NCBI RefSeq assembly: GCF_016904885.1
Contig: NZ_JADWYI010000001.1
Span: 682,001 to 746,000 of the forward strand
DNA from: Archangium primigenium
GTDB lineage: Bacteria; Myxococcota; Myxococcia; Myxococcales; Myxococcaceae
Length of the DNA stretch: 64,000 nucleotides
Direction of reading: 5' to 3'
Shown: positions 47,024 to 61,633 of the stretch, piece after piece
Numbering within the stretch: the first letter of the stretch is position 1
How the letters are laid out: every line of letters begins with the position of its first letter
The notes under the pieces: generated by a model
Databases searched by the model: none
What the model was told of the DNA's origin: nothing
What the model saw: the letters and a program-made list of their open reading frames with translations, nothing else
Made by a program: the position numbers and the translations under genes

Positions 47024-47178
47024 GGCGGGGGCTCGGGGGGGTACTCCTGGGACTGGGGCTGGGGTGCGCCCCCGGGCTCCAGTCCCAGTCGTGCGTGCTG
47101 AGCCCCGGGGGCTTGGCGATGCGCTGCCCGGAGAGCCGCCGCGCGCTCGTCACACCTCAACTGGGTATCAGCCGATGA
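47020..47178 (+). pseudogene. Gutted lipoprotein toxin gene (in-frame internal deletion)
   Basis: A 52-codon frame starts at a GTG that overlaps the M16 stop and ends in ATGA with the immunity gene. Its product keeps only the lipoprotein leader (GVLLGLGLGCAPGLQSQSCV) and the last residues RRALVTPQLGISR of the intact toxin at 48110-48841. About 190 codons in between are missing, without a frameshift. The stretch 47061-47109 is identical to 48160-48208. The toxin is therefore dead while its immunity gene downstream remains. Confidence 0.78.
47061..47109 (+). repeat. 49-bp direct repeat, copy 1 (toxin leader)
   Basis: Identical to 48160-48208; it encodes the lipobox-proximal part of both toxin genes and is the left boundary of the shared sequence in the gutted copy. 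Confidence 0.8.
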
Positions 47179-48080
47179 AGGTGCTCCGGCTCGTGTTGCA
47201 CCTGCCCTTCGATCACGCGGACGTGGCGGCGGGCGTGAACCACGCGCTCGACGTCTACCTCGACGCCCTCGGGAGGGGACCCGAAGGCCTGTCCGACTGG
47301 CGTGATGTCGAGGGCGAGGACGACGTGTTTCCGCTCGAGGGCGAGGGCTGGGACTTCATCCGCTCCATGCTGGCGCCTCCGACGGGGCCGCGCTTCCTGG
47401 ACGACATCCCGGAGGAGCCCTTCGTGCGGCACCGGGTGAAGAAGCAGTTCGACCGCTGCGTGGAACTGACGGGCGGCGCCGGGTACGGCTTCTTCTACTG
47501 GGCCCGCCTGCCGTGGCGGACGCCCGAGCCGGATGCGATGAGTCTGGTGAGCTTCTCCTGGCCCACCGAGTCCCTGGAGGCGCACGGCGCCGAGGCCTCG
47601 CGCGCGCTGATGGAGCGCCTGGCCGCGCTGATGCCGTATGCGTCGGGGCACGCGGGACTGGCGTTCTATTCGCCCAACGTGTGGGGCCCGGAGGTCGCGT
47701 CCATCCACGAGGAGGCGCTGCGCCACCCGGGTCTGGACGTGACGCACGGCGAGCGGCACCTGGGGGTGCGGGTGGACGGGGTGCACTGGCTCAACTTCCT
47801 GGGGCCCGAGGTGCTCGGACGGGTGGGCGGCACCGAGGCCCTGTGCGCGCGGCTGCACGCTCCCGGCACCACGGTGCAGGCGCTGGAGGGAGGGCGGGCG
47901 CTGGTGGCGCTGGGCCCCGCGCCCGAGGCGGGTGACGTCACGCGCGGGGACACGCTGCCCGCGTACCGGGAATTGGCGCGGGTGCTCGAGCCCTGGCTGC
48001 TGCCCTGCCCCGAGACCCGGGTCTGGCACGGCTGTCCTCCGGGCATCGCCCGCCGCTGGGGGCGCCGCTTCCTCGACTGA
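47175..48080 (+). CDS. DUF3396-type immunity protein, N-terminally shortened copy
   Basis: The ATG at 47175 overlaps the stop of the gutted toxin. The protein is about 300 residues with VLRLVLHLPFDHADVAAGVN, MSLVSFSWPTESLEAHGAEA, LAFYSPNVWGPEVASIHEEA and HPGLDVTHGERHLGVRVDGV, the DUF3396 (type VI immunity) pattern. The second copy at 48838 is longer at the start by about 24 residues (including RPYPRIRHEATGP). Except at the start and near residues 30-95, the two are highly alike. It is an orphan immunity gene, since its toxin partner is destroyed. Confidence 0.82.
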   Translation: MKVLRLVLHLPFDHADVAAGVNHALDVYLDALGRGPEGLSDWRDVEGEDDVFPLEGEGWDFIRSMLAPPTGPRFLDDIPEEPFVRHRVKKQFDRCVELTGGAGYGFFYWARLPWRTPEPDAMSLVSFSWPTESLEAHGAEASRALMERLAALMPYASGHAGLAFYSPNVWGPEVASIHEEALRHPGLDVTHGERHLGVRVDGVHWLNFLGPEVLGRVGGTEALCARLHAPGTTVQALEGGRALVALGPAPEAGDVTRGDTLPAYRELARVLEPWLLPCPETRVWHGCPPGIARRWGRRFLD

Positions 48081-48109
48081 GTCGGTTCCCGGGGGCGAAG
48101 CTGTAGGGG

Positions 48110-48841
48110 ATGCCGAGAACGAGACGCCTGTGGCTGTGGGTCGGCGGAGGGCTCGCGGTGGGGTGCGCCCCCGGGCTCCAGTCCCAGTCGTGCGTGCTGA
48201 GCCCCGGGTGCCTGGCGCCCGCGGCGGGTGGGGAGGTGTGGCTCACCCCCGCGCCGGCGGTGGTGCGGGCGGCCCAGGCGGTGCGGGGCTTGCTGACGCT
48301 CAAGGACTTCCTGGACGAGGCCGAGGTGGCGCGGGTGGAGGCGGTGTTGGTGGCGTGCGCCCGGGAGGCGGACTTCCAGGTCAACGAGCGCGAGTACGGC
48401 CCGGGCAGGGCTCCGGATGACCGGGAGTGCAATCGCGTGGTGGGCCATGACTCCAAGGGACGTGAAGTCCTACGGGCGATGGAGCTTGGAAAGCTGAAGC
48501 ATGCGGTGGCATTCGCTTGTGTCGAGCGGGAACTCGGGCGCGACTTCTCCGAACACTTCACGCGGGAGCCTGGCTATCGCCAAGATCCAGCGACGGGCGC
48601 GTTCCATTTGACGCAGACCCTCGCGGGCTCCCTGCGGCCAGACATCGTCCTTCATCTAGGACGTGACGCGAACCGGATCCAGTACCTGTATGACTTCCTC
48701 TTTCCTTGCACGTCGGCGAGCAAGAGCAATCCATTGGGCGAGATGAACCGGACACTTCAGGAGAAGTTGGACAAGTATCGCCGCCTCACGGAGGATTCAC
48801 GACGGGCGCTCGTCACACCTCAACTGGGAATCAGTCGATGA
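48110..48841 (+). CDS. Intact lipoprotein toxin-like gene paired with DUF3396-type immunity
   Basis: A 243-residue product with lipobox signal (WLWVGGGLAVGC, Cys19). The middle has RAAQAVRGLLTLKDFLDEAE, and the C-terminal 110 residues contain FACVERELGRDFSEHFTREP, LAGSLRPDIVLHLGRDANRI and QYLYDFLFPCTSASKSNPLG. The 'RPDIV...YDFxFPC' order looks like a PD-(D/E)XK nuclease core, but the position usually occupied by Lys is Leu (DFL), so catalysis is uncertain. Composition falls in GC from about 48420 on, as in a swapped-in toxin domain. The stop overlaps the immunity gene by ATGA. Confidence 0.68.
   Translation: MPRTRRLWLWVGGGLAVGCAPGLQSQSCVLSPGCLAPAAGGEVWLTPAPAVVRAAQAVRGLLTLKDFLDEAEVARVEAVLVACAREADFQVNEREYGPGRAPDDRECNRVVGHDSKGREVLRAMELGKLKHAVAFACVERELGRDFSEHFTREPGYRQDPATGAFHLTQTLAGSLRPDIVLHLGRDANRIQYLYDFLFPCTSASKSNPLGEMNRTLQEKLDKYRRLTEDSRRALVTPQLGISR
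48160..48208 (+). repeat. 49-bp direct repeat, copy 2 (toxin leader)
   Basis: Identical to 47061-47109. A second shared stretch follows at the gene end (CGTCACACCTCAACTGGG in both), which with this repeat frames the deleted part of the gutted copy. Confidence 0.8.
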
Positions 48842-49809
48842 CCCGCCCGTATCCTCGAATCCGCCACGAAGCCACGGGCCCGGATGGACGACACCTCGTG
48901 CACCGCGAAGTCATCCGACTCGTGTTGCACTTGCCCTTCGACCATCAGGACCTGGCGAGCGCGGTCGGCCATGCGCTCGATGTTTATCTGGAGGCGGTGG
49001 GTTCGACCCAGGAGGTGTTCAGTGAATACTTCCTGGGCTACGAGCCGAACACGCTGACCTCGGAGGACTGGCCACGGATTCGATCGATGCTCGCGCCACC
49101 GCGTGGGCCGCGGTTCCTCGATGACCTGGAGGACGAGGAGGTCCGCCCCTACCTCAAGGAGCAATTCGAGCGTCGGGTGGACCTCTTGGGCGGAGCCCAG
49201 GGCTTGAGTGGCTACGGTTTCTTCTACGGCTCGCGCCTGCCGTGGCGGACACCGGAGCCGGACGCGATGAGTCTGGTGAGCTTCTCCTGGCCCACCGAGT
49301 TCCTGGAGGCGCATGGCGCCGAGGCCTCGCGCGCGCTGATGGAGCGCCTGGCCTCGCTCCTGCCCTATGCGTCGGGGCACGCGGGACTGGCGTTCTATTC
49401 GCCCAACGTGTGGGGCTTGGAGGAGGCCGCCATCCACGAGGAGGCGCTGCGCCACCCGGGCCTGGACGTGACGCACGGCGAGCGGCACCTGGGGGTGCGG
49501 GTGGACGGGGTGCACTGGCTCAACTTCCTGGGGCCCGAGGTGCTCGGACGGGTGGGCGGCCCGGAGGCCCTGCGCGCGCGGCTGCACGCGCCCGGCACCA
49601 CGGTGCAGGCGCTGGACGGGGGGCGGGCGCTGGTGGCGCTGGGCCCCGTGCCCGAGGCGGGTGACATCGCGCGCGGGGACACGCTGCCCGCGTACCGGGA
49701 GCTGGCGCGGGTGCTCGAGCCCTGGCTGCTGCCCTGCCCCGAGACCCGCGTCTGGCATGGCTGTCCTCCAGGCACCGCTCGCCGCTGGGGGCGCCGCTTC
49801 CTCGACTGA
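48838..49809 (+). CDS. DUF3396-type immunity protein, full-length copy
   Basis: A 323-residue cytoplasmic protein translated from the ATG overlapping the toxin stop. It begins TRPYPRIRHEATGPDGRHLV, then IRLVLHLPFDHQDLASAVGH, and ends as its sister copy does, with WHGCPPGTARRWGRRFLD. DUF3396 proteins act as immunity to type VI and related toxins. The last 200 residues are almost the same as in the copy at 47175-48080. The two differ mainly around residues 45-110, where specificity may lie. Confidence 0.82.
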   Translation: MTRPYPRIRHEATGPDGRHLVHREVIRLVLHLPFDHQDLASAVGHALDVYLEAVGSTQEVFSEYFLGYEPNTLTSEDWPRIRSMLAPPRGPRFLDDLEDEEVRPYLKEQFERRVDLLGGAQGLSGYGFFYGSRLPWRTPEPDAMSLVSFSWPTEFLEAHGAEASRALMERLASLLPYASGHAGLAFYSPNVWGLEEAAIHEEALRHPGLDVTHGERHLGVRVDGVHWLNFLGPEVLGRVGGPEALRARLHAPGTTVQALDGGRALVALGPVPEAGDIARGDTLPAYRELARVLEPWLLPCPETRVWHGCPPGTARRWGRRFLD

Positions 49810-49867
49810 GTGCCCTCGGGGGCCATGGCGGCGCCGCCCGTCGGACGCCGCGCGGGCCCCGTGCCAT

Positions 49868-49932
49868 GCAAGCCGGACCCCCGGGGGCAGGGGGATGTCC
49901 GCCCCCGAGGCCCCACCCGGTGTCCGGCTTGC
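49868..49932. repeat. Large imperfect hairpin with 11-bp perfect outer arms
   Basis: GCAAGCCGGAC (49868-49878) and GTCCGGCTTGC (49922-49932) are perfect inverted arms; inside them GGGGGC (49883-49888) and GCCCCC (49901-49906) pair again. It lies 59 bases after the last immunity stop. No U-tract follows, so it is not a classic terminator. It might mark an element end or be a strong mRNA structure. Confidence 0.45.
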
Positions 49933-49996
49933 CCGGGGAATGGCGAGTCCCATGTTCTTCCCAGACGTCACGCGAAGAGGAGGAGCCTGTCATTCC

Positions 49997-50533
49997 ATGA
50001 GTCCGTCCAAGCTGGTGTCGTGTCTGTCGGTGATGTGTGTCCTGGGTGCGGCGGCGGTGGGGGCCAGTCCCCGGGAGCCGTCCGCCATGCTCCCCGCGGG
50101 GGGTTTTCCCCTGCCCGAGCGGGAGTTCCTGCTCGTCAACGTGGGCTACTCGCTCTGTCTGACCGTGGTGGACGGCGTGGCCGAGGGCCAGCCGTGTGCC
50201 TGGGACGACGCGCCCGCCGCCCAGCGCTGGCGCTATCAGGATCGCCAACTCATCAGCATGCTCGGCGGCGACTGTGTCCTCGCGCCCTCGCTGGTGCCGT
50301 GCCAGGGCGCGGGCGCCTTCGAGCTGTCCTACAACCTGCTCACCCAGCACCTGGTGCTCTCTCCGGGCGGCACCTTCCAGGGCGGCAGTTGTCATGTGAT
50401 TGATCAGGTGTTCCAGCAAGACGAGACCACGGGCGTGCTGGTGCCGCGCCACTTGTCCCGGCGCGCGGCCCTGGAGTCCACCGCGTGCGAGGTCACCCGC
50501 TCCACGTCCCGGTGGGTCATCGTCCCGCTGTAG
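49997..50533 (+). CDS. Secreted protein, possibly ricin-B-like fold
   Basis: A 178-residue product from the ATG at 49997 with GGAGGAG upstream. The signal peptide is KLVSCLSVMCVLGAAAVGAS. The mature part has FLLVNVGYSLCLTVVDGVAE, CAWDDAPAAQRWRYQDRQLI (a QxW-like unit) and LGGDCVLAPSLV. This is reminiscent of ricin-type carbohydrate-binding beta-trefoils, with paired Cys. The match is short, so only a tentative call. A strong terminator follows. Confidence 0.6.
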   Translation: MSPSKLVSCLSVMCVLGAAAVGASPREPSAMLPAGGFPLPEREFLLVNVGYSLCLTVVDGVAEGQPCAWDDAPAAQRWRYQDRQLISMLGGDCVLAPSLVPCQGAGAFELSYNLLTQHLVLSPGGTFQGGSCHVIDQVFQQDETTGVLVPRHLSRRAALESTACEVTRSTSRWVIVPL

Positions 50534-50547
50534 CCGCCAAGCCCGGC

Positions 50548-50588
50548 CCAGACACCCACCCCCCCTCCGGTGGCGGGTGTCTGGTTTC
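50548..50588. terminator. Intrinsic terminator between convergent secreted-protein genes
   Basis: CCAGACACCC (50548-50557) and GGGTGTCTGG (50575-50584) form a perfect 10-bp stem followed on the plus strand by TTTC. It lies 15 bases after the stop of 49997-50533 and 19 bases past the end of the minus-strand gene at 50607, so it may serve both. Confidence 0.75.
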
Positions 50589-50606
50589 AGGCCGGGGCCG
50601 CGCGGA

Positions 50607-51182
50607 CTACAGCAGCGTCAGCACGAGGTTGGAGATGCCATGCGCCTGCGTCAGGCCTTCCACCGACAGGCAGCCGCCGATGAAGTCCGTATTCACATAC
50701 GTGATGGTGCGCACCGCCGTGGCCCCGGCGTATTTGCCCTCGGTCACCACGCCGTTGTACGTCTCCACGGTGAGCAGGCCCTGCACGTCCACCGCGTAGA
50801 GCGAGAAGGTGAGCTCGGACGTCTCACCCGTGTTCCAGCTCAGCGTCGTCTCGGAGGCCTGTCCCAGGCGCGTCAGCCCGCAGGACTGGCCCCGCCGGGC
50901 CGTGTGCTCGATGGCCGTGGCCCACACCACCGGCTCGCCCAGTACCGTGAGGCAGCTGTTGAAGGAGGACTGCGTGGCCACCGTCACGTCCTGGGACTGC
51001 TGGCGCAGCCCCGGCGAGAAGCTCGTGGTCACCGAGCCCAGCGGGCAGCTCACCACCGCGGGCAGTCCCAATCCCTGACGCCCACCGGCCGCCTGGCTCA
51101 TGCCCGGCATCAGCGACAGCAGCATGCCCACGACCACGTTTCGCACAAACCGCGCACCCTGACCCTGGTTCTGGTTCATCAT
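50607..51182 (-). CDS. Secreted hypothetical protein
   Basis: The ATG at 51182 has AGGAG nine bases upstream. The N-terminus is a signal peptide (RFVRNVVVGMLLSLMPGMSQ, cleaved near AAGG). The mature 155 residues are beta-rich with two Cys pairs: VVSCPLGSVTTSFSPGLRQQ, SSFNSCLTVLGE, RGQSCGLTRLGQASETTLSW, FIGGCLSVEGLTQAHG. No known motif is recognised. It converges on the gene ending at 50533 across the terminator. A 286-bp region upstream (51183-51468) has no gene I can see. Confidence 0.68.
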   Translation of the reverse strand: MMNQNQGQGARFVRNVVVGMLLSLMPGMSQAAGGRQGLGLPAVVSCPLGSVTTSFSPGLRQQSQDVTVATQSSFNSCLTVLGEPVVWATAIEHTARRGQSCGLTRLGQASETTLSWNTGETSELTFSLYAVDVQGLLTVETYNGVVTEGKYAGATAVRTITYVNTDFIGGCLSVEGLTQAHGISNLVLTLL

Positions 51183-51468
51183 TGGGGATGACTCCTGGAC
51201 GGATTCTGGGACGTTGGTGAGGCTCGACAGCACTTCGCCGCTCGACGGCGCGAGAGGAGGGCCCGGGACAGGCGTCGGCGCTTCCGCGGCATCCCGGTGA
51301 CCACCGCCCCCCCCTCGTGAAACCCATTGAAAGGGATTCGGGCCCTCGAAACAATACAGACCCGGGGGTTCCGTGATTGCGGGTTTGTCCGCACTTCCCT
51401 TGCTCGTGCTTGAGACACGGAATTTTCCCTGTTAGTGGGAAGGAGTCGTCTGTCTATCGGGGGGTGCG

Positions 51469-53334
51469 ATGATGAGAAAGATTGCCCGGGCATCCGGAGT
51501 GTCTGTGATGGGCTGGGGGGTGCTGTTGGTGCTCACGGCGGGCTGGAGCGGCGCGCTGCGCTCGCCCACCCAGGCCCCCGCGGCGCGTGAGGTGTTGGAG
51601 GACGCGCGGCGGCTGGAGGCCTGGTACGCCGCCGCCACGCGGGGCACGGGCCGCGCGAGTGTCTCGCTGGACCTGGGCCAGGAGGCGCACCGGGCCTTCC
51701 TCCTGCGCCGGCTCCAGGCCGCGGGCAAGACGCCCCGCTCCGCGCCGGAGCTCTTCCGCCGGCTCGCCGCCGCGCGCGCCCGGAGCCCCGCGCCGAGCGA
51801 GGCCGGCCTGTGGTGCGACCACGCCCTGCTGCTGCGCCCCGCCCTCCCCTCCCCTTCCGGCGAGGCGCTCGTCTTCCCCGTGTCCGTGCGCGTGAGCTGC
51901 CTGGGCGGCGCGGACTACGTCTTCGCGGACCTCATCGCCCAGGACGCGCCCCGGGACGACTCGACGCGCACCGTGCTCGCCTCGCGCGCGGGCGAGGAGT
52001 TCGCCGGGGGCACGGACTTCCTCGACGTGGCCGTGGACGTGCCGGCCGCGCCCGCCGACGGCCACCTCTTGCGCGTGGAGTCGCTCGCGCTCGCCTCGGA
52101 CGCCCGGAGCGGCCGCGACTTCGTCTCCTATGCGGTGGCGCGGCACTCGCTCGCGCTGCGGCCCGACGGAGGCCACGGCCTCGTGCACCCGCGCGCGCTC
52201 GTGCCGGGCGCGGGCGAGGAGGTGCTCCTGTGCCAGGCGCGCGGCGGCACCGACTGCGACTACGCCCAGGTGACGCTCACCGACGGCGTGCCCGAGCCCT
52301 TCACCGCCCAGCCCACCGGGCTCGCCGCCGCCCTGCCCGACGCGCCCGGCCGCTTCAGCGCCCAGGACTACTGGCCCTTCACCACCCCGCCCGACCCGCG
52401 CCACCTGCTGCTCCCCGTGCGCGCGCGCCTGTCCCCCGGCGCCCGCCCGGGCGGCCCGTGCACCGTGGCGCGCTACACCGCCGCCCGCCTCAAGCTCCTG
52501 GACACCGCGCGCGGCGCCACCTGCGTGCCCGCGCAGGATCCCCGCGGCCTCTTGCCCACGGGCCTCGTCTCGGGCCCGGTGGACTTCCTCGCCGCGCCCT
52601 CCACCCTGCTCAACGAGGACCTGCCCGACGCCCCCGCCTGCGAGGCCGCCGCGCTGCGCGACGCCCCCCTGAGCCTGAGCCTCACCCTGGTGGGCGAGGC
52701 CCGGTGCGAGGACGCCGACGGCACCGCCACGCTCGAGCCCTTTTTCCTCTCGGACGCGCTCGACCGCCGCGCCCCGGGCGCGCGCCGGCTCGTCTTCCAC
52801 GAGGGCTGCCTCGCCGAGGGCACCCCCATCACCCTCGCCGATGGCCGCGGCGTGCCCGTGGAGGACGTGCGCCCGGGGGACCGCGTGCGCGCGGACACGC
52901 TCGGCGCGGTGCTCACCGTGACGGACGTGAGCCGGGGCCAGGAGCCCGAGCCCCTGGTGCTGCTGCGCGACAGCGCCGGCCACGTGCTGCGCCTCACCGA
53001 GCGCCACCCCGTGCTCCTCCCGGACGGCGGCGGGGTGGCCGCCGGCGCGCTGCACCCCGGGGACACGGTGCGCACGGACGCGGGCCCCGCGCGCCTGGTC
53101 TCCGTGGCGCGGGTGCCCGGCGGCACGCGTGTCTTCAACCTGCGGCTGGGCACCGCGTCGGAGCTCGCGCGCCGCCCGGCCGGGGCCCCCGCCGCGCTCT
53201 TCGCCGGCGGCTTCCTCGTGGGGGACCTCGCCCTGCAGCGCGCCCTGGCCACCCCCACCCCCGCCGCGAGTCCGCCCCTCGCGCGCCTGCCACCCGCCTG
53301 GCACGCGGATCTGCACCACGCCCTCGCGCGCTGA
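51469..53334 (+). CDS. Secreted protein with C-terminal Hint (intein-like) domain
   Basis: A 621-residue product with a signal peptide (VMGWGVLLVLTAGWSGALR). Residues about 45-440 are a large beta-rich region with scattered Cys and no known motif. At residue 447 a Hint domain begins: EGCLAEGTPITLADGRGVPV, then EDVRPGDRVRA, TERHPVLLPDGGGV (block B His about 513) and VFNLRLG. The C-terminal splice signal (HN/C) is not there; ALFAGGFLVGDL takes its place. So it could cleave after Cys447 but not splice. Such Hint domains release or attach proteins, as in hedgehog-like and polymorphic toxin systems. Only a short tail follows the Hint domain. Confidence 0.8.
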   Translation: MMRKIARASGVSVMGWGVLLVLTAGWSGALRSPTQAPAAREVLEDARRLEAWYAAATRGTGRASVSLDLGQEAHRAFLLRRLQAAGKTPRSAPELFRRLAAARARSPAPSEAGLWCDHALLLRPALPSPSGEALVFPVSVRVSCLGGADYVFADLIAQDAPRDDSTRTVLASRAGEEFAGGTDFLDVAVDVPAAPADGHLLRVESLALASDARSGRDFVSYAVARHSLALRPDGGHGLVHPRALVPGAGEEVLLCQARGGTDCDYAQVTLTDGVPEPFTAQPTGLAAALPDAPGRFSAQDYWPFTTPPDPRHLLLPVRARLSPGARPGGPCTVARYTAARLKLLDTARGATCVPAQDPRGLLPTGLVSGPVDFLAAPSTLLNEDLPDAPACEAAALRDAPLSLSLTLVGEARCEDADGTATLEPFFLSDALDRRAPGARRLVFHEGCLAEGTPITLADGRGVPVEDVRPGDRVRADTLGAVLTVTDVSRGQEPEPLVLLRDSAGHVLRLTERHPVLLPDGGGVAAGALHPGDTVRTDAGPARLVSVARVPGGTRVFNLRLGTASELARRPAGAPAALFAGGFLVGDLALQRALATPTPAASPPLARLPPAWHADLHHALAR

Positions 53335-53434
53335 GGCCCCTGGGAGGCGCGGCTGGCGGCTGGGCGAGGCGCCGGGCCCGCTCCACCGCCAGGCCCTTCC
53401 GCCCCCGTGGGGGCCCCGGGTTAGCGTCGCCGCC

Positions 53435-54397
53435 ATGTCCCCCTCGCTTCGCGCGTCCCTGCTGCTGCTGTCCCTCTCCGCCTGCTCCCCCGACCCCTCC
53501 CCCGCCCCGGGCCCGGAGACCCCGGCTCCCGCCGACGCGGGGACCCCGCCCGCCTCGCCCGATGCCGGCTCTGACGCCGGCACCGACGCCGGCACCGACG
53601 CCGGCACCCCGCCCGCCACCGGCCCGGAGAGCTCGCGCGGCAGTGGCAAGCTGCCCTGCGCGCGCACGGGCACCCTCGCCTCCGGCGGGCAGACCTACGC
53701 CTACTGCGTGGCCGAGGTGGCCGGCGTGGAGCTGAAGATCTTCGAGCCCGTGGCCGCCTCCCCCGAGGCCCCCCTGCACCTGGCCGTCTACCTGCACGGG
53801 GATGGCGCGCGCACCTACACCAACGACACCGCCCCGCGTGCCCACGCCCCTTGGGCCGCCACCCACGGCACCCTCTACATCGCCGCGCGCGCGCTCAACG
53901 GCTGCGCCTGGTGGACCCGGCCCTCGCTCACCGCCTGCACCGACGAGGCCCCCCCCTCCGAGCGCGACCTGGAGGGCGCCGGCGCCGCCGCGCTGGTCAA
54001 GGTCATCGAGGAGGTGCGCGCGGGCTGGGACATCCTCAACGACGCGCCGCTCCTGCTCGGGGGCTCCTCGGGCGGCTCGGTGTTCCTCACCGCGAGCTTC
54101 CTGCCGCGCTACGGCCAGCGCTACCCCGCCGTCTACGCGCTCGCCTGCGGCGGCGAGGCCTCGTGGACGGGCGCGCTCGCGTGGAACCCCGCCCAGCCCG
54201 GCGCGCTCGGGCCCACGAAGCTCGTCTACACCTACGGGACGAAGGACGACTACCTCGCGGACATCGAGGCCTCGGTCGCCTTCTACCGCGAGCGCGCCTT
54301 CCCCCTCACCGAGACGCGCCTGCCCGACCTGGGCCACTGCGCCTTCGACCACGTGGGCGGCGTGAAGGACGTGTGGAACGCCGCGCTCGCGCCGTGA
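53435..54397 (+). CDS. Lipoprotein alpha/beta hydrolase (esterase/depolymerase-like)
   Basis: The ATG at 53435 gives a lipobox signal (LLLLSLSAC). A linker with DAGTDAG repeats follows. The hydrolase domain has LAVYLHGDGARTYTNDTAPR, a nucleophile elbow LLLGGSSGGSVFLTA, a strand with YTYGTKDDYLADIE (acid) and LPDLGHCAFDHVGG (His). The Ser-Asp-His triad is thus visible. The closest pattern is the PHB-depolymerase/feruloyl-esterase-like group. It would act at the cell surface on esters. The preceding Hint gene ends 100 bp upstream. Confidence 0.82.
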   Translation: MSPSLRASLLLLSLSACSPDPSPAPGPETPAPADAGTPPASPDAGSDAGTDAGTDAGTPPATGPESSRGSGKLPCARTGTLASGGQTYAYCVAEVAGVELKIFEPVAASPEAPLHLAVYLHGDGARTYTNDTAPRAHAPWAATHGTLYIAARALNGCAWWTRPSLTACTDEAPPSERDLEGAGAAALVKVIEEVRAGWDILNDAPLLLGGSSGGSVFLTASFLPRYGQRYPAVYALACGGEASWTGALAWNPAQPGALGPTKLVYTYGTKDDYLADIEASVAFYRERAFPLTETRLPDLGHCAFDHVGGVKDVWNAALAP

Positions 54398-54505
54398 AGC
54401 ACCCGCCGTGAATAGCCGGTGGGACCTGGCGTCAGGGGGAACGGATAGGGTAGGCCCCGGAAGGCCCAACCCGGGCCATCCGTCATTGGGCGGACTTCCA
54501 GGAGA

Positions 54506-54540
54506 ACCGTTTTGTCATAGGTTTACGACAAGACCGTTTT
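54506..54540. promoter_or_regulatory. AT-rich operator-like pair of repeats before the small gene at 54579
   Basis: Two direct copies of ACCGTTTT (54506-54513 and 54533-54540) frame a TTGTC/GACAA inverted repeat (54512-54516, 54527-54531). The patch stands out as AT-rich. It lies 39-73 bases before the ATG and could carry a promoter with regulator sites. Confidence 0.4.
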
Positions 54541-54578
54541 CCTGTAACTCCCGCCGCTCGCCCCCGAGATTCTTCTTC

Positions 54579-54848
54579 ATGCGTGACACCGTCGATGCCG
54601 CCGCCTTCCACCCCGCCCTCCCCGTGTCCCCGGCCCCCGAGCGCCACGTCTCGGCGCTCGCCGACTGGCACGGCCCGGAGGCCCTGGGGACCCAGGTGAG
54701 CGAGGTGCTGGAGGACCTGCACCAGCTCCTGGTCGACATGGAGGCCGAGGCCCACTTCCACGAGGCGCGCCTCACCCCCCGCCACCTGGATGATCAGGTG
54801 GACGCGGCGCTCGCCGACCTGCACCACCTGCTCGTGGAGCTCGGGTAG
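54579..54848 (+). CDS. Small hypothetical protein with two similar helical units
   Basis: An 89-residue soluble protein. TQVSEVLEDLHQLLVDMEAE is echoed at the end by DQVDAALADLHHLLVELG, so it looks like two related amphipathic helices, perhaps a dimerisation or docking module. An intact frame is preceded by an AT-rich promoter-like patch. A decayed partial copy of the gene is at 55475-55561. Function is unknown. Confidence 0.62.
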   Translation: MRDTVDAAAFHPALPVSPAPERHVSALADWHGPEALGTQVSEVLEDLHQLLVDMEAEAHFHEARLTPRHLDDQVDAALADLHHLLVELG

Positions 54849-54853
54849 GCCGG

Positions 54854-55417
54854 CTACTCGGTCACGCTGGTGAGGGGGCGCTTCCTCTCGACGACGGGGA
54901 TGTAGCAGCGCCCCTCGTACTCGTAGAGGTCGCCACACGGAGGCGGTGACACCGCCTCGATCCAGCAGGCATCGTTGAGCAGCACCTGCACGGGTGCGGT
55001 GCCACAAGGGGCGGCCTGCTGCCCCTTCATGCGTTTGGACGGCATCTTCTTCGCCACCACGCCGGCGTCACCCGGGCTGGTGAGGAGCCACTCCGGCACC
55101 TCGGCGTCCTCCACTTCCCAGGCCCACATCGCTCGCGGCGCCCCACTGTCGCCGAGCGCGAGCAGGACCCAGACGGCGAGGCCCCCGGCGAGCGCCCACA
55201 CGGCGCGAGGCAGGTGCCACACCGGGCGCATCCTCCGCCCACCGCTTCGGGTGGAGGTGGTCCGCAGCACGACCCGCAGCGCCAGGAGCACGAGCCCCAC
55301 GGTGCCCATCTCCCGCGCGCACGTGACGGAGAAGAGGAGGAGTCTCGGCCCGCTGATCCCGAGGCGACTGGCACTGAGGAAGACGCGCGCCCACTCCCGC
55401 TTTTTTCTTGAGGTCAT
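54854..55417 (-). CDS. Membrane protein with myxobacterial Cys-rich C-terminal motif
   Basis: The ATG at 55417 is chosen to start the first hydrophobic region; a longer frame upstream overlaps a gene relic. There are probably two membrane segments (TVGLVLLALRVVL and AVWALAGGLAVWVLLAL). The C-terminal 60 residues have CGTAPVQVLLNDACWIEAVS, then PPCGDLYEYEGRCYIPV, a Cys-patterned ending. I recall similar endings in myxobacterial proteins encoded next to Ser/Thr kinases, but no kinase is here. The extracytoplasmic part probably has two disulfides. Confidence 0.65.
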   Translation of the reverse strand: MTSRKKREWARVFLSASRLGISGPRLLLFSVTCAREMGTVGLVLLALRVVLRTTSTRSGGRRMRPVWHLPRAVWALAGGLAVWVLLALGDSGAPRAMWAWEVEDAEVPEWLLTSPGDAGVVAKKMPSKRMKGQQAAPCGTAPVQVLLNDACWIEAVSPPPCGDLYEYEGRCYIPVVERKRPLTSVTE

Positions 55418-55474
55418 ATGGGCGGGGTGACTTAGCGCGTCGTGTGCGCGTGCGTCCACGGTCCACGACCGCGG

Positions 55475-55561
55475 ATGCCGAGCGCCACGGTTCGGCACCT
55501 GGATGACCCACTGGACGCGGCCCTTGGACCCGCGTCACCTGCCCGTGGAGATCGTGGTTAG
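55475..55561 (+). pseudogene. Decayed partial copy of the small gene at 54579
   Basis: The short frame reads ATVRHLDDPLDAALGP, matching RHLDDQVDAALAD in the intact gene. The DNA from CACCTGGATGA on aligns to 54780-54848 with about three quarters of bases equal. A two-base gap shifts the frame before the end, and the middle of the gene is missing. It ends at the 3' end of the DUF262 gene and marks the left border of the defence-like operon. Confidence 0.5.
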
Positions 55562-57201
55562 AACGGCATCAGAGCGTCCTCGGCGAGAGCGTATCGTGCG
55601 TCTTCCTCGACGAATGGGTCGATGAAGTGAGCGTCCAACTCCGCCAGGGTTTGTTGGCGCTCCATCAGGAAGCCCTCGATGTCGTGCTCTTCAATCGCTC
55701 GGAGTGCCGCTGGTGTGATGGCGTGGCTGGCCAGGAAGTCCTTGTCGGCCACAATGGGTCTTCGGGCAAGCAGGCTGCGGATGGCCTCGGCCTCCTGTGG
55801 CCGCACGATGATGCGATTGGCGCTTTCGGGGCGCCCACGAACAAGTGGAACGATGGCATCCGCGCCATGCCGGGCTAGCAGTGCGAGAGGGTTGTCTATG
55901 GGTCGGCCGTCGGCGTCGCGAGGCCTCAATTCCGCCAAGCGGATCGCCAGGGCCTTGGAACGGGCGGACCGGTAATGGAAGCGCTCGGGGAGCGGTTCGA
56001 CGGCCATGGACGTTCCTGCCGCGGCGAAACATGTCTCCCCGCTCGCGAGGCTCCGGACATTCCGCAACAAGCGGTTGAGCTTGTTCCGGTTGACCGCGCG
56101 GAAGACACCTCCATAGGTGGTCAGCCAGAACCAGCGGATGATGTGCGGTGTGACCTCTGACAAGGGCTTGCCCGAGATCCTCCAGACACGCATGGCCTCC
56201 GCGAGGAGGATGAGCTGGTAGCGGGAGGGGAGCAGTTCGGCGGAGAGGACTCCGCACTTGCGCTGCAGGAAGCGGACCGCCTCGTGCAGATTGTCGATGG
56301 CGTCATCCAAGAGGCGGGGATTCGCCGCGAGCTGTTTGCCGAGCGTCTCGACGTTCTCCTCGAAGAGACTCAAGTCGAGCGAAACCTTGCAGACATCGAG
56401 GAACAGATCCTCGTCCGGCTCGGGCGCCCAACTCGACTCCTTGATGAGGGCCTTGGCGGCGGTCAACCGCTCACGCAGGTCGAACTTCTCGTTCCAGGTC
56501 AGCGCCTGCATCATGTGGAACTCACCCATGGGCGTGCCCCGACTGTTGATGCGGTGGAAGATGCGCGTGGCGTGCTCCAGGTCCTCGGTCACGATGGCGA
56601 GCACGGGAATCTTGTAGTCGCGAAACGCGCTCACCAACTCGTCGGATGCCTGGATGAGCCGCTCGGCGTCGGGCTGCTTCGCCAGTTCTCGCTGGAAGCG
56701 CAGCAGCCCGATGCCATCGAGTGTCAACCAGAGCGGCTGCCACGTCGCGGGAGGCGGTTCATCCGTCTCGTGAACCAGGAACGTGCGCTCCTCCAGGTCG
56801 TAATAAAGATCCCAACTCGACCCGCGCCCGATGCTGCGCTCAATGGGTTCCGGTATGCTACCCACGACACGCGGATGGATGCTCCCGAGAAGAGTACTGA
56901 GCCGCTGGACGCCATCCAAGAGGTAGCTGTGCATGAGGCCCTCGATGGGAGGACGCTCGGGGAGCCGGTAGGGACCAATAGCCTGAAAGCACTCCAGGCG
57001 CCGGGTGGCGGTGCGCCAGATGAGGACGCTGCCCATCGGGATGCCGTCGCGCACGCTATTGAGGAGTTCGAGGCGCTGACTGTCGTTCCAGACGAAGTCC
57101 CGCTGGAACAGGGGCAGGCGCAGGTTGCCCTCCATGATCTCCTGGAGCAGACGGGCCAGGGACTGGATTTGAGGCTCACTCAGATAGGACGGGGTCGCCA
57201 T
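55558..57201 (-). CDS. DUF262-domain protein (GmrSD/ParB-nuclease-like), third gene of defence-like operon
   Basis: A 547-residue protein. The N-terminal half is DUF262: LRLPLFQRDFVWNDSQRLEL, IPMGSVLIWRTATRRLECFQ and LLDGVQRLSTLLGSI (family DGQQR, here DGVQR), then RIFHRINSRGTPMGEFHMMQ. DUF262 occurs in nucleotide-dependent restriction proteins such as GmrSD and in many defence genes. The usual C-terminal HNH (DUF1524) is not visible; the second half is helical with HYRSARSKALAIRLAE. It starts 18 bp after the TOPRIM-like gene, so one operon. GC content is lower than the core genes nearby. Confidence 0.85.
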   Translation of the reverse strand: MATPSYLSEPQIQSLARLLQEIMEGNLRLPLFQRDFVWNDSQRLELLNSVRDGIPMGSVLIWRTATRRLECFQAIGPYRLPERPPIEGLMHSYLLDGVQRLSTLLGSIHPRVVGSIPEPIERSIGRGSSWDLYYDLEERTFLVHETDEPPPATWQPLWLTLDGIGLLRFQRELAKQPDAERLIQASDELVSAFRDYKIPVLAIVTEDLEHATRIFHRINSRGTPMGEFHMMQALTWNEKFDLRERLTAAKALIKESSWAPEPDEDLFLDVCKVSLDLSLFEENVETLGKQLAANPRLLDDAIDNLHEAVRFLQRKCGVLSAELLPSRYQLILLAEAMRVWRISGKPLSEVTPHIIRWFWLTTYGGVFRAVNRNKLNRLLRNVRSLASGETCFAAAGTSMAVEPLPERFHYRSARSKALAIRLAELRPRDADGRPIDNPLALLARHGADAIVPLVRGRPESANRIIVRPQEAEAIRSLLARRPIVADKDFLASHAITPAALRAIEEHDIEGFLMERQQTLAELDAHFIDPFVEEDARYALAEDALMPF

Positions 57202-57219
57202 GATCGGATTTCCTTGTGC

Positions 57220-58224
57220 TCAGGCGGCGCGCAGCATCGTTTCGAACAGCCGCATCAACTCGGGGCGCTGTCCATCTTCCGTGAACGCGTTTTCCTCAAT
57301 GCGCTCGTGGAATGCGCGGGCCACGATGGAACTGAAGCCCTCCTCCAACAATGCCGCCTTGTCTGGCTGTTGTGCGATGAGCGGCTCAAAAATGTCTGCG
57401 ACTCCCTCTGCGGACTTTCGGTCCTTCTTCAACCCGTGCTTCATGTTGTAGTGGTGACGTTGCTCCTCCGACAAGGAGCGGAACGCATGAAGCTTGGCGA
57501 GCCATTTTTCATCGAAATCCCGAGCATGTTGCTGCCCGAGCCAATGCTTGAGGGCGGGCTCGGGGATGTAATTTTCAATGGCCCTACGCTCAAGCTGATG
57601 GTGCGGCAGTCCATGGTGGGCGCAGGTGTTCGCGAGTCGTCTGGAGTCCGAGGAGGGTTCCCCTCGCTTGCGTGCATCACTGTCGAGCATGACGAACAGG
57701 CGCAGGCACAACTCGGGGGTCAGATTTTCCTTGGCGAGAACGTGACGCAGATTCTGGATGCCGCCCCGGTGCTCCAGCTTGAAGCATCTGCTCCTGGACC
57801 ACGTCTCGAAGCGCTCCCGGTAGATGAAGGGCACGGACGCCTTGAGGAAGGTCTCGTCATGGACTCCCTCGATGACGACGCTCAGTGGCTCGCGTAGCAG
57901 GGCGTTCGCGGTGCCAAGAGAGAAGCGCGGGACCTTTCCACTCCAATCGACGTCGGGCACATCCGCGATGCGAATGACGGTCGTGGAGGCGTCCCTTGCT
58001 TGCCGCTGTACTCCCTCTTCGAGCAGGAATTCGATGCGCTCTCGCTCTCGTCCTTGCGCTGGCAGGCCATTCAACCACTCACGGAATTCCACTGCATCTG
58101 GAGGGTCCACAGAGATGTAGTGGCAAGTCCTGTCCAAGCAGAGTTGCCAGAGCGTGGGGAGCGCGAAGGGATCGCGTTGGAGTTGCGCGGAGGCGAAGAG
58201 TGGCGCCTCGATGATGAGCCTCAC
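57220..58224 (-). CDS. TOPRIM-like (OLD/DUF4435-like) protein, second gene of defence-like operon
   Basis: Translated from a GTG at 58224 that overlaps the ATPase stop (GTGA). The 334-residue protein has a TOPRIM pattern from about residue 115: LSVVIEGVHDETFLKASV (Glu and Asp), LEHRGGIQNLRHVL, LFVMLDSDARKRGE (Asp-x-Asp) and LERRAIENYIPEPALKHWLG. TOPRIM domains in OLD-type nucleases cut nucleic acids using Mg2+. In PARIS and Gabija systems an ATPase controls a TOPRIM partner. The first 110 residues are of unknown fold. It is clearly the partner of the ATPase by coupling. Confidence 0.75.
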   Translation of the reverse strand: MRLIIEAPLFASAQLQRDPFALPTLWQLCLDRTCHYISVDPPDAVEFREWLNGLPAQGRERERIEFLLEEGVQRQARDASTTVIRIADVPDVDWSGKVPRFSLGTANALLREPLSVVIEGVHDETFLKASVPFIYRERFETWSRSRCFKLEHRGGIQNLRHVLAKENLTPELCLRLFVMLDSDARKRGEPSSDSRRLANTCAHHGLPHHQLERRAIENYIPEPALKHWLGQQHARDFDEKWLAKLHAFRSLSEEQRHHYNMKHGLKKDRKSAEGVADIFEPLIAQQPDKAALLEEGFSSIVARAFHERIEENAFTEDGQRPELMRLFETMLRAA

Positions 58225-59537
58225 GTGCCCTCCTTCCACCGCTCCTTGAGGATGCGGCGCGCCAGTTCCGTGTCCTCGGAGAAGACGCCGGGGGGCCAGT
58301 GGCTGGGCTGTCCCTTGTCGTTGAACGTGATGAGTTCGAGCGTGCTGCTGCCGTCGTCGATTTGCTGGACCCAATACAAGGCGACCCGCTGCGGATCGAG
58401 TCGACCTTGGACGATGGCGAGCTGGATGCCCTGGAGGAAATTCTCCGAGTGCGTCTCGATGAGGGCACAGGGGGCGTTTTCCCTCATGGCGGTCACGCAG
58501 AAGAAGTCCGCGAGCGCCTCATGGAGCTTGGGGTGAAGGTGCAGCTCCGGCTGTTCAATCGCGGTGAGGGTCGACGCCGAGCCTTGGATGCGTGCCTGGG
58601 CGGCGGCCACCAATACAGGAAGCACTTGGGCCATGCCCTCGCCCGTGTCGATGACGTTCACCCGGACGCCGGGGCTCGCGAGTGGCCCGAGCGTGAGCGC
58701 GTAGTAACGCGGGGCGACCGCGCTGACCTCCAAGCGCTGGCGGGTGTGCTTCTCGAACCACGCGGAGAGCGTGGCGAGGAGTGCGCCTCCCTGGAGCTTG
58801 TCTTGGACGAGCATTTCCAGCACGCCCGCGCCGTTTTCCTTGAGCCTGGCTGGCGCGCTCCCTCGGAACTCCAGGCTCCTGTTGGGGAGCTGGCGAATTG
58901 AGCCAAGCCACTGAACTTCATCTCGCAACTCGTTGAGTTGCATTCCCAGGGAAGTGAACGCCATCCAATGAGCGGGAGGCGTCGGCTCCGCGCTCGGCTT
59001 GATGCCGCGAAAGGCGAGATCGAGGATGTCAGCCTCTTCCTCCGATTCAGGGCCTTGGTACTTCGCACGGGTATCGTAGCGCGCTTGCTCCATCACATTT
59101 CGGGGCTGCCACCGACCCTTGAAGTACGAGGCGTTATCTTGATGCTGGTCGAAAAACTCGGTGTCGAAGTGCTCAACGACGGGAGGCATTACCTCGCCTT
59201 GAGCACCAGGCTGTTCACGGACCCGGAACTGATAGCTGCGCACCGAACGAAGACCGCTTGCCCCATCCCACTCCAGGGTGAAGTCGATGTGCCGCTGGTT
59301 CGGGTTGAGCTGACTGCACAGCTCGCGGAAGGCCGCGCCCCGGACCGCAGGACTGTCGAGGTTGAGCGGCGCGCCCCGGGGCTCCCCCACCGAGTTCGCC
59401 AGCAACGGCAGCACGCGCAGCAGCGCGCTCTTGCCCGAGTTGTTGTAGCCGAACAGCAGCGTGAGCGGCCGCAACTCCACCGTGGTGGGCCGGAGGAACG
59501 AGCGGTAGTTGGCGACGGTGAAGGACTTGAGGGCCAT
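58221..59537 (-). CDS. AAA/ABC-type ATPase with DUF3696-like C-terminus, first gene of defence-like operon
   Basis: A 438-residue SMC/OLD-like ATPase. Walker A is LLFGYNNSGKSALLRVL near the start. The ABC-type second half has VIDTGEGMAQVLPVLVAAAQ (signature/Q region), LTAIEQPELHLHPKLHEALA (Walker B with Glu, D-loop) and ALIETHSENFLQGIQ (H-loop). The end WPPGVFSEDTELARRILKER matches DUF3696. Such ATPases sense invading nucleic acid or phage proteins and license a nuclease. It is divergent from mnmG, with a 215-bp gap that would hold both promoters. Confidence 0.88.
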   Translation of the reverse strand: MALKSFTVANYRSFLRPTTVELRPLTLLFGYNNSGKSALLRVLPLLANSVGEPRGAPLNLDSPAVRGAAFRELCSQLNPNQRHIDFTLEWDGASGLRSVRSYQFRVREQPGAQGEVMPPVVEHFDTEFFDQHQDNASYFKGRWQPRNVMEQARYDTRAKYQGPESEEEADILDLAFRGIKPSAEPTPPAHWMAFTSLGMQLNELRDEVQWLGSIRQLPNRSLEFRGSAPARLKENGAGVLEMLVQDKLQGGALLATLSAWFEKHTRQRLEVSAVAPRYYALTLGPLASPGVRVNVIDTGEGMAQVLPVLVAAAQARIQGSASTLTAIEQPELHLHPKLHEALADFFCVTAMRENAPCALIETHSENFLQGIQLAIVQGRLDPQRVALYWVQQIDDGSSTLELITFNDKGQPSHWPPGVFSEDTELARRILKERWKEGT

Positions 59538-59752
59538 GGGCGTGTGAGCGGGGTTCGCACCCGTTCTGAGTTCTGATTCTTGGGTTCCGACTCAGCCTTG
59601 ATTCCTGGCACGGCCCGAGCGGCCCGCCAAGTTCGCGCGCCCCCATCCGCCCGCTTTCCCACGCCCCTCCCCGCCCCCGCTCGCCCGCCGCGCGGCCTCT
59701 CCCACCGTCCCCAACTTGCCAACCGCCGCGCGCCGCGAGAGACAAGGCGGCC

Positions 59753-61633
59753 GTGAGCACCCCTTCCTCCGGCGCCGGTTTGAAGTCGCGGTACGACGTC
59801 ATCGTGGTGGGCCTGGGTCACGCGGGCTGCGAGGCCGCGCTCGCCTGCGCGCGCATGGGCCTTAGCACCCTCGGCCTCACCCTCAAGCGCGAGCGCGCCG
59901 CCGTCATGAGCTGCAACCCCGCCGTGGGCGGCACCGCCAAGGGCCACCTCGTGCGCGAGCTCGACGCGCTCGGCGGCGAGATGGCCCGCGTCGCCGACCT
60001 CACCGGCACCCACTTCAAGACGCTCAACGCCTCCAAGGGCCCCGCCGTCCAGGCCACCCGCGTGCTCTGCGACCGCGACGCCTACGCCCGCGTCATGCAG
60101 TCCGTCCTCTTCTCCCAGCCCGGCCTCACCGTGCACGAGGCCGAGGTCTCCGCCGTGCGCGCCGACGCGGGCCGCGTCTCGGGCGTCACGCTCGCGGACG
60201 GCACCGAGCTCGCCGCCGCCGCCGTGCTGCTCACCACCGGCACCTTCCTCCAGGCCCTCATGCACGTGGGCGAGAAGAAGGAGGTGGGCGGTCGCCTCGG
60301 GGACGAGGCCGCGAAGGGCATGTCGGACTCCTTGCGCGCGCTCGGCTTCACCCTCGGCCGCTTCAAGACCGGCACCCCCGCCCGCCTCCTGCGCGACAGC
60401 ATCGACTGGGCCGCCCTCGCCCCCCAGCCCGGGGACTTCCCGCCCCGCCCCCTCTCCCTGCGCACCCGTCTGGACCCGGGCCCCTTCCCCCTCCAGCCCG
60501 CCGTCACCTGCGCCCTCACCTACACCACCGACGCCACCCACCAGATTCTGCGCGACAACCTCCACCGCTCGCCGCTCTACCAGGGGGAGATCGTCGGCCG
60601 GGGCCCGCGCTACTGCCCCTCGCTGGAGGACAAGGTGGTGCGCTTCTCCGCGCGCGAGCGGCACCTCGTGTTCCTCGAGCCCGAGGGCCCGACCTCCCCG
60701 CTCGTCTACCCCGCCGGCCTGAGCACGAGCCTGCCCGCGGACGTGCAGCTCGCCTTCCTGCGCACCCTGCCGGGGCTCGGGGACGTCCAGGTGGCGCGCT
60801 ACGGCTACGCGGTGGAGTACGACTACGCCCCGCCCACGCAACTGCACCCGACCCTGGAGACCAAACGCGTGCGCGGCCTGTACTTCGCCGGCCAGCTCAA
60901 CGGCACGAGCGGCTACGAGGAGGCCGCCTTCCAGGGGCTCTACGCGGGGATTCAGGCGGCGCTCCAGGTGAAGGGCGAGCCCGTGCTGGAGCTTGGCCGG
61001 CACGAGGCGCACGGCGCGGTGCTGGTGGACGAGCTCGTCACGCGGGGCGTGGATGGCGAGCCCTTCCGCATGTTCACCAGCCGCTCCGAGCACCGGCTGC
61101 GCCTGCGCGAGGGCAACGCGGACCTGCGGCTCGTGCGGCACGGGGCGCGGGTGGGGCTCGTGGGGGAGGAGGTGGCCGGGCGGGTGGCGGCGCGGGGCGA
61201 GGCGGTGGCGGGCGAGGTGGCGCGGCTCAAGCGCTCGGGCCTGGCCGCGCGGCTCAAGCGCCCCGAGGTGACGTACGCGGTGCTCGCGGCGGAGGCCGGG
61301 GGAGGGGAGGCGGGCTGGCCCGTGCTCGCCCCGGACGTGGTGGAGGAGGTGGAGGTGGAGGTGAAGTACGAGGGCTACATCGTCATGGCCGAGCGGGCCG
61401 CGGCGCGCGAGGCCGAGGCGTGGGATGGCTGGCGCATCCCCGGGGACTTCGCGTACGAGCAGGTGCGCGGGCTGTCCGCCGAGGCGCTCGAGAAGTTCGA
61501 GAAGCACCGCCCGGGCACGGTGGGCCAGGCGCGGCGCATTCCGGGGCTCACCCCGGCGGCGTTCTCGCTCCTCTTGGTGGCGCTCAAGCGCGAGGGGCGG
61601 GGGCCGGGCGGCGGGGAGCGCGCGGACGGTTGA
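59753..61633 (+). CDS. mnmG: tRNA uridine-5-carboxymethylaminomethyl modification enzyme MnmG (GidA)
   Basis: The 626-residue protein has the FAD-binding start YDVIVVGLGHAGCEAALACA, then the GidA signatures CNPAVGGTAKGHLVRELDAL, LNASKGPAVQATR, FKTGTPARL, YCPSLEDKVVRF and CALTYTTDATHQILRDNL. The late GidA signature is QLNGTSGYEEAAFQG. Near the end is the region that binds MnmE (IPGDFAYEQVRGLSAEALEK). It uses FAD and NADH with MnmE to modify wobble U34. The GTG start has AAGGCGG upstream. It is next to rsmG as in most bacteria. Confidence 0.97.
   Translation: MSTPSSGAGLKSRYDVIVVGLGHAGCEAALACARMGLSTLGLTLKRERAAVMSCNPAVGGTAKGHLVRELDALGGEMARVADLTGTHFKTLNASKGPAVQATRVLCDRDAYARVMQSVLFSQPGLTVHEAEVSAVRADAGRVSGVTLADGTELAAAAVLLTTGTFLQALMHVGEKKEVGGRLGDEAAKGMSDSLRALGFTLGRFKTGTPARLLRDSIDWAALAPQPGDFPPRPLSLRTRLDPGPFPLQPAVTCALTYTTDATHQILRDNLHRSPLYQGEIVGRGPRYCPSLEDKVVRFSARERHLVFLEPEGPTSPLVYPAGLSTSLPADVQLAFLRTLPGLGDVQVARYGYAVEYDYAPPTQLHPTLETKRVRGLYFAGQLNGTSGYEEAAFQGLYAGIQAALQVKGEPVLELGRHEAHGAVLVDELVTRGVDGEPFRMFTSRSEHRLRLREGNADLRLVRHGARVGLVGEEVAGRVAARGEAVAGEVARLKRSGLAARLKRPEVTYAVLAAEAGGGEAGWPVLAPDVVEEVEVEVKYEGYIVMAERAAAREAEAWDGWRIPGDFAYEQVRGLSAEALEKFEKHRPGTVGQARRIPGLTPAAFSLLLVALKREGRGPGGGERADG

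Follow-up and report, generated by a model that had tools for sequence, protein, structure and literature searches.

OLD and the Gabija protein GajA combine an ATP-binding cassette (ABC) ATPase and a TOPRIM nuclease in one polypeptide, and in PARIS an OLD-type ATPase adjoins a TOPRIM protein, AriB; to our knowledge, PARIS has no DUF262 gene. A further named system, Menshen, consists of three genes encoding the DUF262 protein NsnA, the ATPase NsnB and a third protein, NsnC. DUF262 domains are described as nucleoside triphosphatases (NTPases), and the DUF262 proteins of GmrSD, BrxU, SspE and GrwAB as detecting modified DNA (PMC10952713, PMC12137116). Here we compare with these systems an operon of three genes, termed A, B and C, within a 64,000-nucleotide stretch of Archangium primigenium DNA (NZ_JADWYI010000001.1, positions 682,001 to 746,000), called the window below. 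All three proteins match the corresponding models A, B and C of PDC-M55, a phage defence candidate in PADLOC-DB 2.0.0 (2023), and the genes are adjacent, which identifies the trio as a PDC-M55-type candidate defence operon that is already catalogued and not of an unseen kind. An initial annotation of the window had called the operon possibly undescribed and without a named match; the PADLOC search of each protein that it proposed returned PDC-M55 in every case, and Menshen also pairs DUF262 and an OLD-type ATPase with a third gene. The operon is laid out as follows.

58221..59537, minus strand: gene A, OLD-type ABC ATPase with a DUF3696-like C-terminus (438 amino acids; PDC-M55A, relative of Menshen NsnB)
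58221..58224, minus strand: GTGA overlap of the GTG start of B with the TGA stop of A
57220..58224, minus strand: gene B, predicted TOPRIM nuclease (334 amino acids, GTG start; PDC-M55B)
57202..57219, minus strand: 18-base spacer from B to C
55558..57201, minus strand: gene C, DUF262 (GmrSD_N) NTPase-type protein (547 amino acids; PDC-M55C)

The three linked genes, their overlap and their spacer are thus as first annotated in coordinates and strand. The match to the PADLOC-DB models covers positions 1-413 of 421 for A (expectation value, E, 1.3e-72) and 11-537 of 554 for C (E 2.3e-88). Compared with the catalogued family, B is a divergent member, matching the PDC-M55B model with E 5.1e-27 and 93.5 bits (residues 93-316, model positions 77-290 of 315); this is its sole PADLOC match at E 10. 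No NCBIfam model matches the trio proteins above its cut-off. PDC-M55 is named in no paper of the open-licence literature searched, the name being a catalogue label only.

The trio is a real, conserved unit. PDC-M55B was located at 8 places in Myxococcota, the phylum to which the window belongs (7 of 195 genomes), and at 14 places in Pseudomonadota, the phylum of Undibacterium (11 of 398 genomes); two of these 11 genomes (G197 and G198) were known beforehand as trio carriers. Reading the neighbouring genes by script, we found A, B and C adjacent, on one strand and in the same order at 8/8 places in Myxococcota, the window included, and at 13/14 in Pseudomonadota, i.e. at 21 of the 22 overall, which bears out the co-occurrence that the initial annotation had put forward as a check. 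The lone exception (L067) has a single 593-amino-acid OLD-like protein (E 4.8e-4). Among the 13 Pseudomonadota trios, L070 is a fragment close to a complete trio, the C protein of L065 measures 232 amino acids, and in L060 a stop is reported within B. Scanning genome contigs yielded seven loci, all of which carry the trio; as three of them (Archangium) and two more (Magnetococcales, Undibacterium) coincide with loci of the phylum searches by position and score, the new ones are those from an Acidobacteria and a Chromatiaceae metagenome-assembled genome (MAG). An intact trio is present on the Paracoccus yeei plasmid pYEE5. The trio also occurs in a Nonomuraea sequence deposited as a plasmid which, at 11.85 Mb, is probably a chromosome. 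On the Leclercia plasmid L022 the B gene of the trio is split by an IS1 element, while on a second Leclercia plasmid B is matched in one piece over 64-72%. In all, the candidate occurs in Myxococcota, Pseudomonadota, Acidobacteria and Actinomycetota, and plasmids carry it as well.

Tree comparisons further support inheritance of the three genes as one set. For 24 trios the agreement between trees amounts to r = 0.81 (A-B), 0.49 (B-C) and 0.66 (A-C); once three trios with a short C and one with a truncated C are removed, it becomes 0.79, 0.86 and 0.90, respectively, and none of 5000 permutations reaches any of these correlations in either set. Because the permutation ignores shared species history, the agreement shows joint inheritance and not contact between the proteins. 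Not included in the trees are L022, whose B is interrupted by IS1, the fragmentary L070 and L067 with its single OLD-like protein, as well as presumed duplicates recognized by position and identical scores (L001, L011, L012, L014, L016, L063, L069, L091-L094 and L097); the truncated C of L065 is omitted from the second comparison only, along with the three short-C trios. Several of the A or C sequences used are incomplete where a locus ends within the gene, and C was limited to 700 amino acids (L034).

The nucleotide-binding motifs annotated in A are present, namely Walker A (GYNNSGKS, A30-37), the Walker B region (IEQPELHLHP, A327-336) and the H-loop (IETHS, A360-364), and the Walker A residues G30, N32, G35, K36 and S37 are each kept in 24/24 trios. 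In Pfam, A matches AAA_15/AAA_21, and DUF3696 narrowly misses its cut-off (20.8 bits against 22). The Menshen NsnB model also matches A (E 1e-39), with a better score for PDC-M55A, while the best of the AriA models (E 9.1e-19) is far weaker than either. Since, in addition, the AriB model PDLC02983 matches nothing in the whole genome at E 0.001, the exact identity with PARIS that the initial annotation had named as a possible refutation is not borne out. The same genome encodes a second DUF3696-type ATPase (L126:6775-8705; near 1115000 in contig C1), which overlaps a small gene that is PIN-like by eye and has no Pfam match. This ATPase, at 1115298-1116704 of that contig, was considered as a second copy of A and rejected, as its best PADLOC match is HEC-03B and neither B nor C adjoins it.

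B comprises an N-terminal domain (about residues 1-110) and a predicted TOPRIM domain (about 112-331). Its GTG start is supported by the homologue in L029, whose first residues, MRVIIEAPL, correspond to the VRLIIEAPL at the start of B. TOPRIM-like motif residues are found at E119...D123, GG154-155 and D181-S-D183. E119, G154, G155, D181, R214, Y219 and P221 are kept in 24/24 trios, and D123 and D183 in 23/24 each, with Glu in the exceptions. No Pfam family matches B at E 1, and in the PDB the B profile finds no credible match by sequence (best E 0.19). A structure model built from eight sequences has a predicted local distance difference test score (pLDDT) of 85.7 and a predicted template modelling score (pTM) of 0.81. 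VIA-align, in which about residues 110-334 of the model are aligned, places OLD C-terminal domains at the top (Z 10.6-9.3), followed by Thermus OLD (9.1), PARIS AriB (8.5 and 8.3), GajA (6.3) and retron Eco2 (6.1); a Z of about 6 is also reached by unrelated folds, lumazine synthase among them. On this model B is a TOPRIM nuclease whose nearest solved folds are OLD and then PARIS AriB. The TOPRIM pattern of the initial annotation is accordingly upheld by the fold model and by residue conservation, though not by a Pfam family.

As in PARIS, an OLD-type ATPase adjoins a TOPRIM protein, and the match of the B model to AriB (8ux9_A) gives Z 8.5 with a root-mean-square deviation (rmsd) of 4.0 over 166 aligned residues, a score exceeded by the OLD domains. 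As there is no AriB sequence match to B, the resemblance is one of fold only; moreover, the AriB-aligned part does not include some 110 residues at the N-terminus of B, and the DUF262 gene is extra here. E119 of B would coincide with E26 of AriB, a correspondence obtained by arithmetic on the range ends without a residue alignment, assuming an ungapped match from the first pair (112 = chain 19). In the AriB E26A mutant tRNA cleavage is lost (PMC12409363). With OLD and GajA, the operon shares the combination of ABC ATPase and TOPRIM nuclease, which is here divided between two genes and accompanied by a DUF262 gene.

The DUF262 motifs reported for C are likewise confirmed (FQRDFVW, C32-38; DGVQR, C96-100), and FHRIN (C215-219), which had gone unmentioned, can be added; R100 is kept in 23/24 trios. 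Conserved to this degree, the motifs of A, B and C are not due to chance. Pfam assigns C to GmrSD_N (DUF262) with 76 bits against a cut-off of 33.2. C thus has the QR, DGxQR and FxxxN motifs of the DUF262 domains of BrxU, GmrSD and SspE. It differs from these enzymes in the DUF1524 nuclease domain, which was not detected in C either by Pfam or by hhalign to five GmrSD_C proteins, where the alignment stops at the DUF262 domain; nor does GmrSD_C match anywhere in the genome at E 0.001. We also considered a degenerate DUF1524 in C, hinted at by a BrxU match reaching residue 536 and by a weak HNH-like match (9j2g, Z 3.8), and found it unsupported by profile alignment. The structure model of C (pLDDT 72.8) has BrxU as its top match (Z 15.1, 463 aligned), a match that must be hinged given its rmsd of 21.6, followed by SspE, DndI and ParB (ParB Z 5.4).

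Within the 19 long-C trios the DUF262 part has a median identity of 0.33, compared with 0.23-0.24 for the remainder of C. Short forms of C (382-390 amino acids) with weak or missing DUF262 motifs stand beside A and B in several myxobacteria (L012, L013, L016, L031 and L032, of which L012/L032 and L016/L031 are apparently the same loci). At the other extreme, the trio of a Magnetococcales MAG has a 1748-amino-acid C (L034:8976-14222) in which DUF262 is joined to TIR, NB-ARC and WD40 in an NLR-like fusion. A C-terminus that varies in kind next to a better-kept DUF262 part is what one would expect to see in a sensor. The PDC-M55C model has matches in 67/189 genomes of the window's phylum, as against 7/195 for PDC-M55B. 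The 30 C-like loci checked, i.e. those given as loci, many of them from closely related genomes and hence not independent, comprise 22 with a HipA gene directly downstream, 5 trios (the window included) and 3 with neither. The HipA-family gene lies on the same strand as the C-like DUF262 gene (L098-L100 and L102-L120, and also L019, an Azospirillum plasmid), and its HipA domains are Pfam-confirmed in one such locus, L120.

The closest named system is Menshen. NsnB is a full-length homologue of A (hhalign E 2e-45), NsnA shares the DUF262 domain with C (hhalign E 1.1e-11 over the DUF262 part), and both systems have three genes. The NsnA model itself matches C with E 3.9e-7, its best stretch covering only 14-56, and the PDC-M55C and HEC-05 models score better. 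In contrast to the trio, the gene order of Menshen is DUF262-ATPase-NsnC (5/5 strong loci fetched), its DUF262 protein is shorter (391-432 amino acids, compared with 547 for C), and its third protein NsnC is unrelated to B. NsnC, whose model PDLC03879 matches 19 genomes in a same-sized draw of 398, has no TOPRIM motif by eye. The NsnC models do not match B at E 10, and the possibility that B is an NsnC was rejected, as profile comparison with 21 NsnC sequences gives a probability of 0.1-0.3%, compared with 97.6% for a control, the N-terminal domains of two halves of the B tree. A further report describes ptuXYZ as a DUF262 protein, a PtuA-like ATPase and PtuZ, which has PIN-like and YoeB-like parts (PMC11980606); ptuXYZ is presumably Menshen under another name. 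The B model has a weak match to PRORP (7e8j, Z 5.9), which together with the PIN-like domain of PtuZ hinted at an N-terminal domain common to B and NsnC; this candidate was found to be without sequence support.

We consider it rather probable that PDC-M55 is a defence operon in which C senses, A relays and B cuts nucleic acid, whereby the infected cell is stopped. C, a DUF262 NTPase of ParB/Srx fold with no detectable nuclease domain, would sense infection through modified DNA or a different phage signal; A, as an OLD-family ABC ATPase, would form an oligomeric relay that holds B and then releases or activates it; and B, a putative metal-dependent TOPRIM nuclease, would cut RNA or DNA and so stop the infected cell. 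The domains, the conserved catalytic-type residues and the co-inheritance of the trio, together with the modelled fold of B, form the basis of this proposal. The defence-like character seen by the initial annotation is supported; anti-phage activity itself is inferred, like the protein contacts, the order of signalling, the substrate and the abortive outcome. Several observations weigh against the proposal. Foldseek found nothing significant for the B model (best E 0.076, an unrelated polymerase, then 0.085 for the OLD C-terminal domain), so that the TOPRIM call rests on VIA-align together with residue conservation, and the top Z of B has to be read against the Z of 7-8 at which models without a clear match typically peak. 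DUF262 motif residues of C are altered in 5/24 trios (L013, L031, L032, L034 and L065), and NTP binding may thus be dispensable in some trios; C-like genes are, besides, mostly not beside B. Scans of viral contigs, which reach close relatives only, found no relative of B or C, no phage record matched B, and the open-licence literature searched contains no phage assay of the trio.

The same data can be read in other ways. B might act on DNA, with C recognizing modified phage DNA and recruiting A and B, which would make the operon a split modification-dependent restriction system and not a cell-suicide relay. Such a role would fit the best fold match of B, the C-terminal domain of the OLD nuclease (Z 10.6), as OLD and GajA act on DNA like B would; it would also fit the best match of C, the type IV enzyme BrxU, and the modified-DNA sensing described for DUF262 in GmrSD, BrxU and GrwAB (PMC10952713, PMC12137116). 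We nonetheless regard it as unlikely, given that the tRNA-cutting TOPRIM of the AriB type follows close behind (Z 8.3-8.5; PMC12409363) and that C shows no detectable domain for cutting DNA. It is similarly doubtful that the operon is a subtype of Menshen in which the same core of DUF262 protein and ATPase has NsnC replaced by a TOPRIM nuclease: the full-length alignment of A with NsnB and the DUF262 domain common to C and NsnA would be explained, but B bears no relation to NsnC, the gene order differs and C is longer than its counterpart. A toxin-antitoxin or stress module that is maintained as a selfish unit and has no role connected with phages would account for the HipA genes adjoining C-like genes in 22/30 loci and for trios on plasmids. 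This last reading appears quite improbable, as members of the A and C families are found in phage-defence systems that have been tested, B is similar to such a family in fold, and all three proteins are listed in PADLOC as defence candidates.

It is possible, and we suggest this tentatively, that DUF262 is an interchangeable front end for sensing infection, that PDC-M55 and Menshen have the relay core in common and differ by an exchange of effectors, and that the sensor rather than the nuclease sets specificity. If this were true, a DUF262 protein linked to an OLD-type ATPase would drive a TOPRIM nuclease in the trio and the unrelated NsnC in Menshen; DUF262 and a directly adjoining HipA kinase would form a two-gene unit that is frequent in the myxobacterial loci checked; and one lineage would have fused DUF262 to TIR-NB-ARC-WD40. 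In a single operon whose catalytic-type residues are clear, the trio brings together three fields of study: the sensors of type IV restriction, the TOPRIM nucleases of PARIS and OLD, and Menshen. It bears on the question of whether a TOPRIM nuclease encoded by a gene of its own can be driven by a DUF262 sensor via an OLD ATPase. As the database already lists the trio, the discovery itself is modest.

The genomic setting of the operon is defined by two further features of the window.

47042..59792, no strand: interval from a conserved protease-like gene to mnmG, containing the trio and other genes
59753-61633, plus strand: mnmG, which the operon start adjoins

From the block left of the trio, called protease-like by eye, to mnmG the distance is about 12.7 kb here, compared with 1.5-2.7 kb in three genomes of the same genus. 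In a same-family genome (G066) the corresponding interval measures 15.6 kb and contains other genes; for a second such genome (G060), no left block was found in the sequence retrieved. The interval beside mnmG is thus variable, with the trio among the genes that it contains. The initial annotation, which had described the operon as an insert beside mnmG, was right about the neighbour; an insert made up of the trio alone goes further than these comparisons. Its claim of lower G+C holds relative to the nearest flanks: in 1-kb windows the operon (55500-59499) has 0.61-0.65, compared with 0.70-0.80 on the left (51.0-55.5 kb) and 0.73-0.75 on the right (59.5-62 kb). Low G+C is, however, not unique to the operon, as the region dips to 0.65-0.67 elsewhere (48-49.5, 50.5-51.5 and 62.5-63.5 kb). 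ARAGORN found no tRNA genes in the window. The same variable interval also harbours two neighbouring TsiV-family genes (type VI immunity for VRR-NUC), at 47064-48080 and 48706-49809 of the window.

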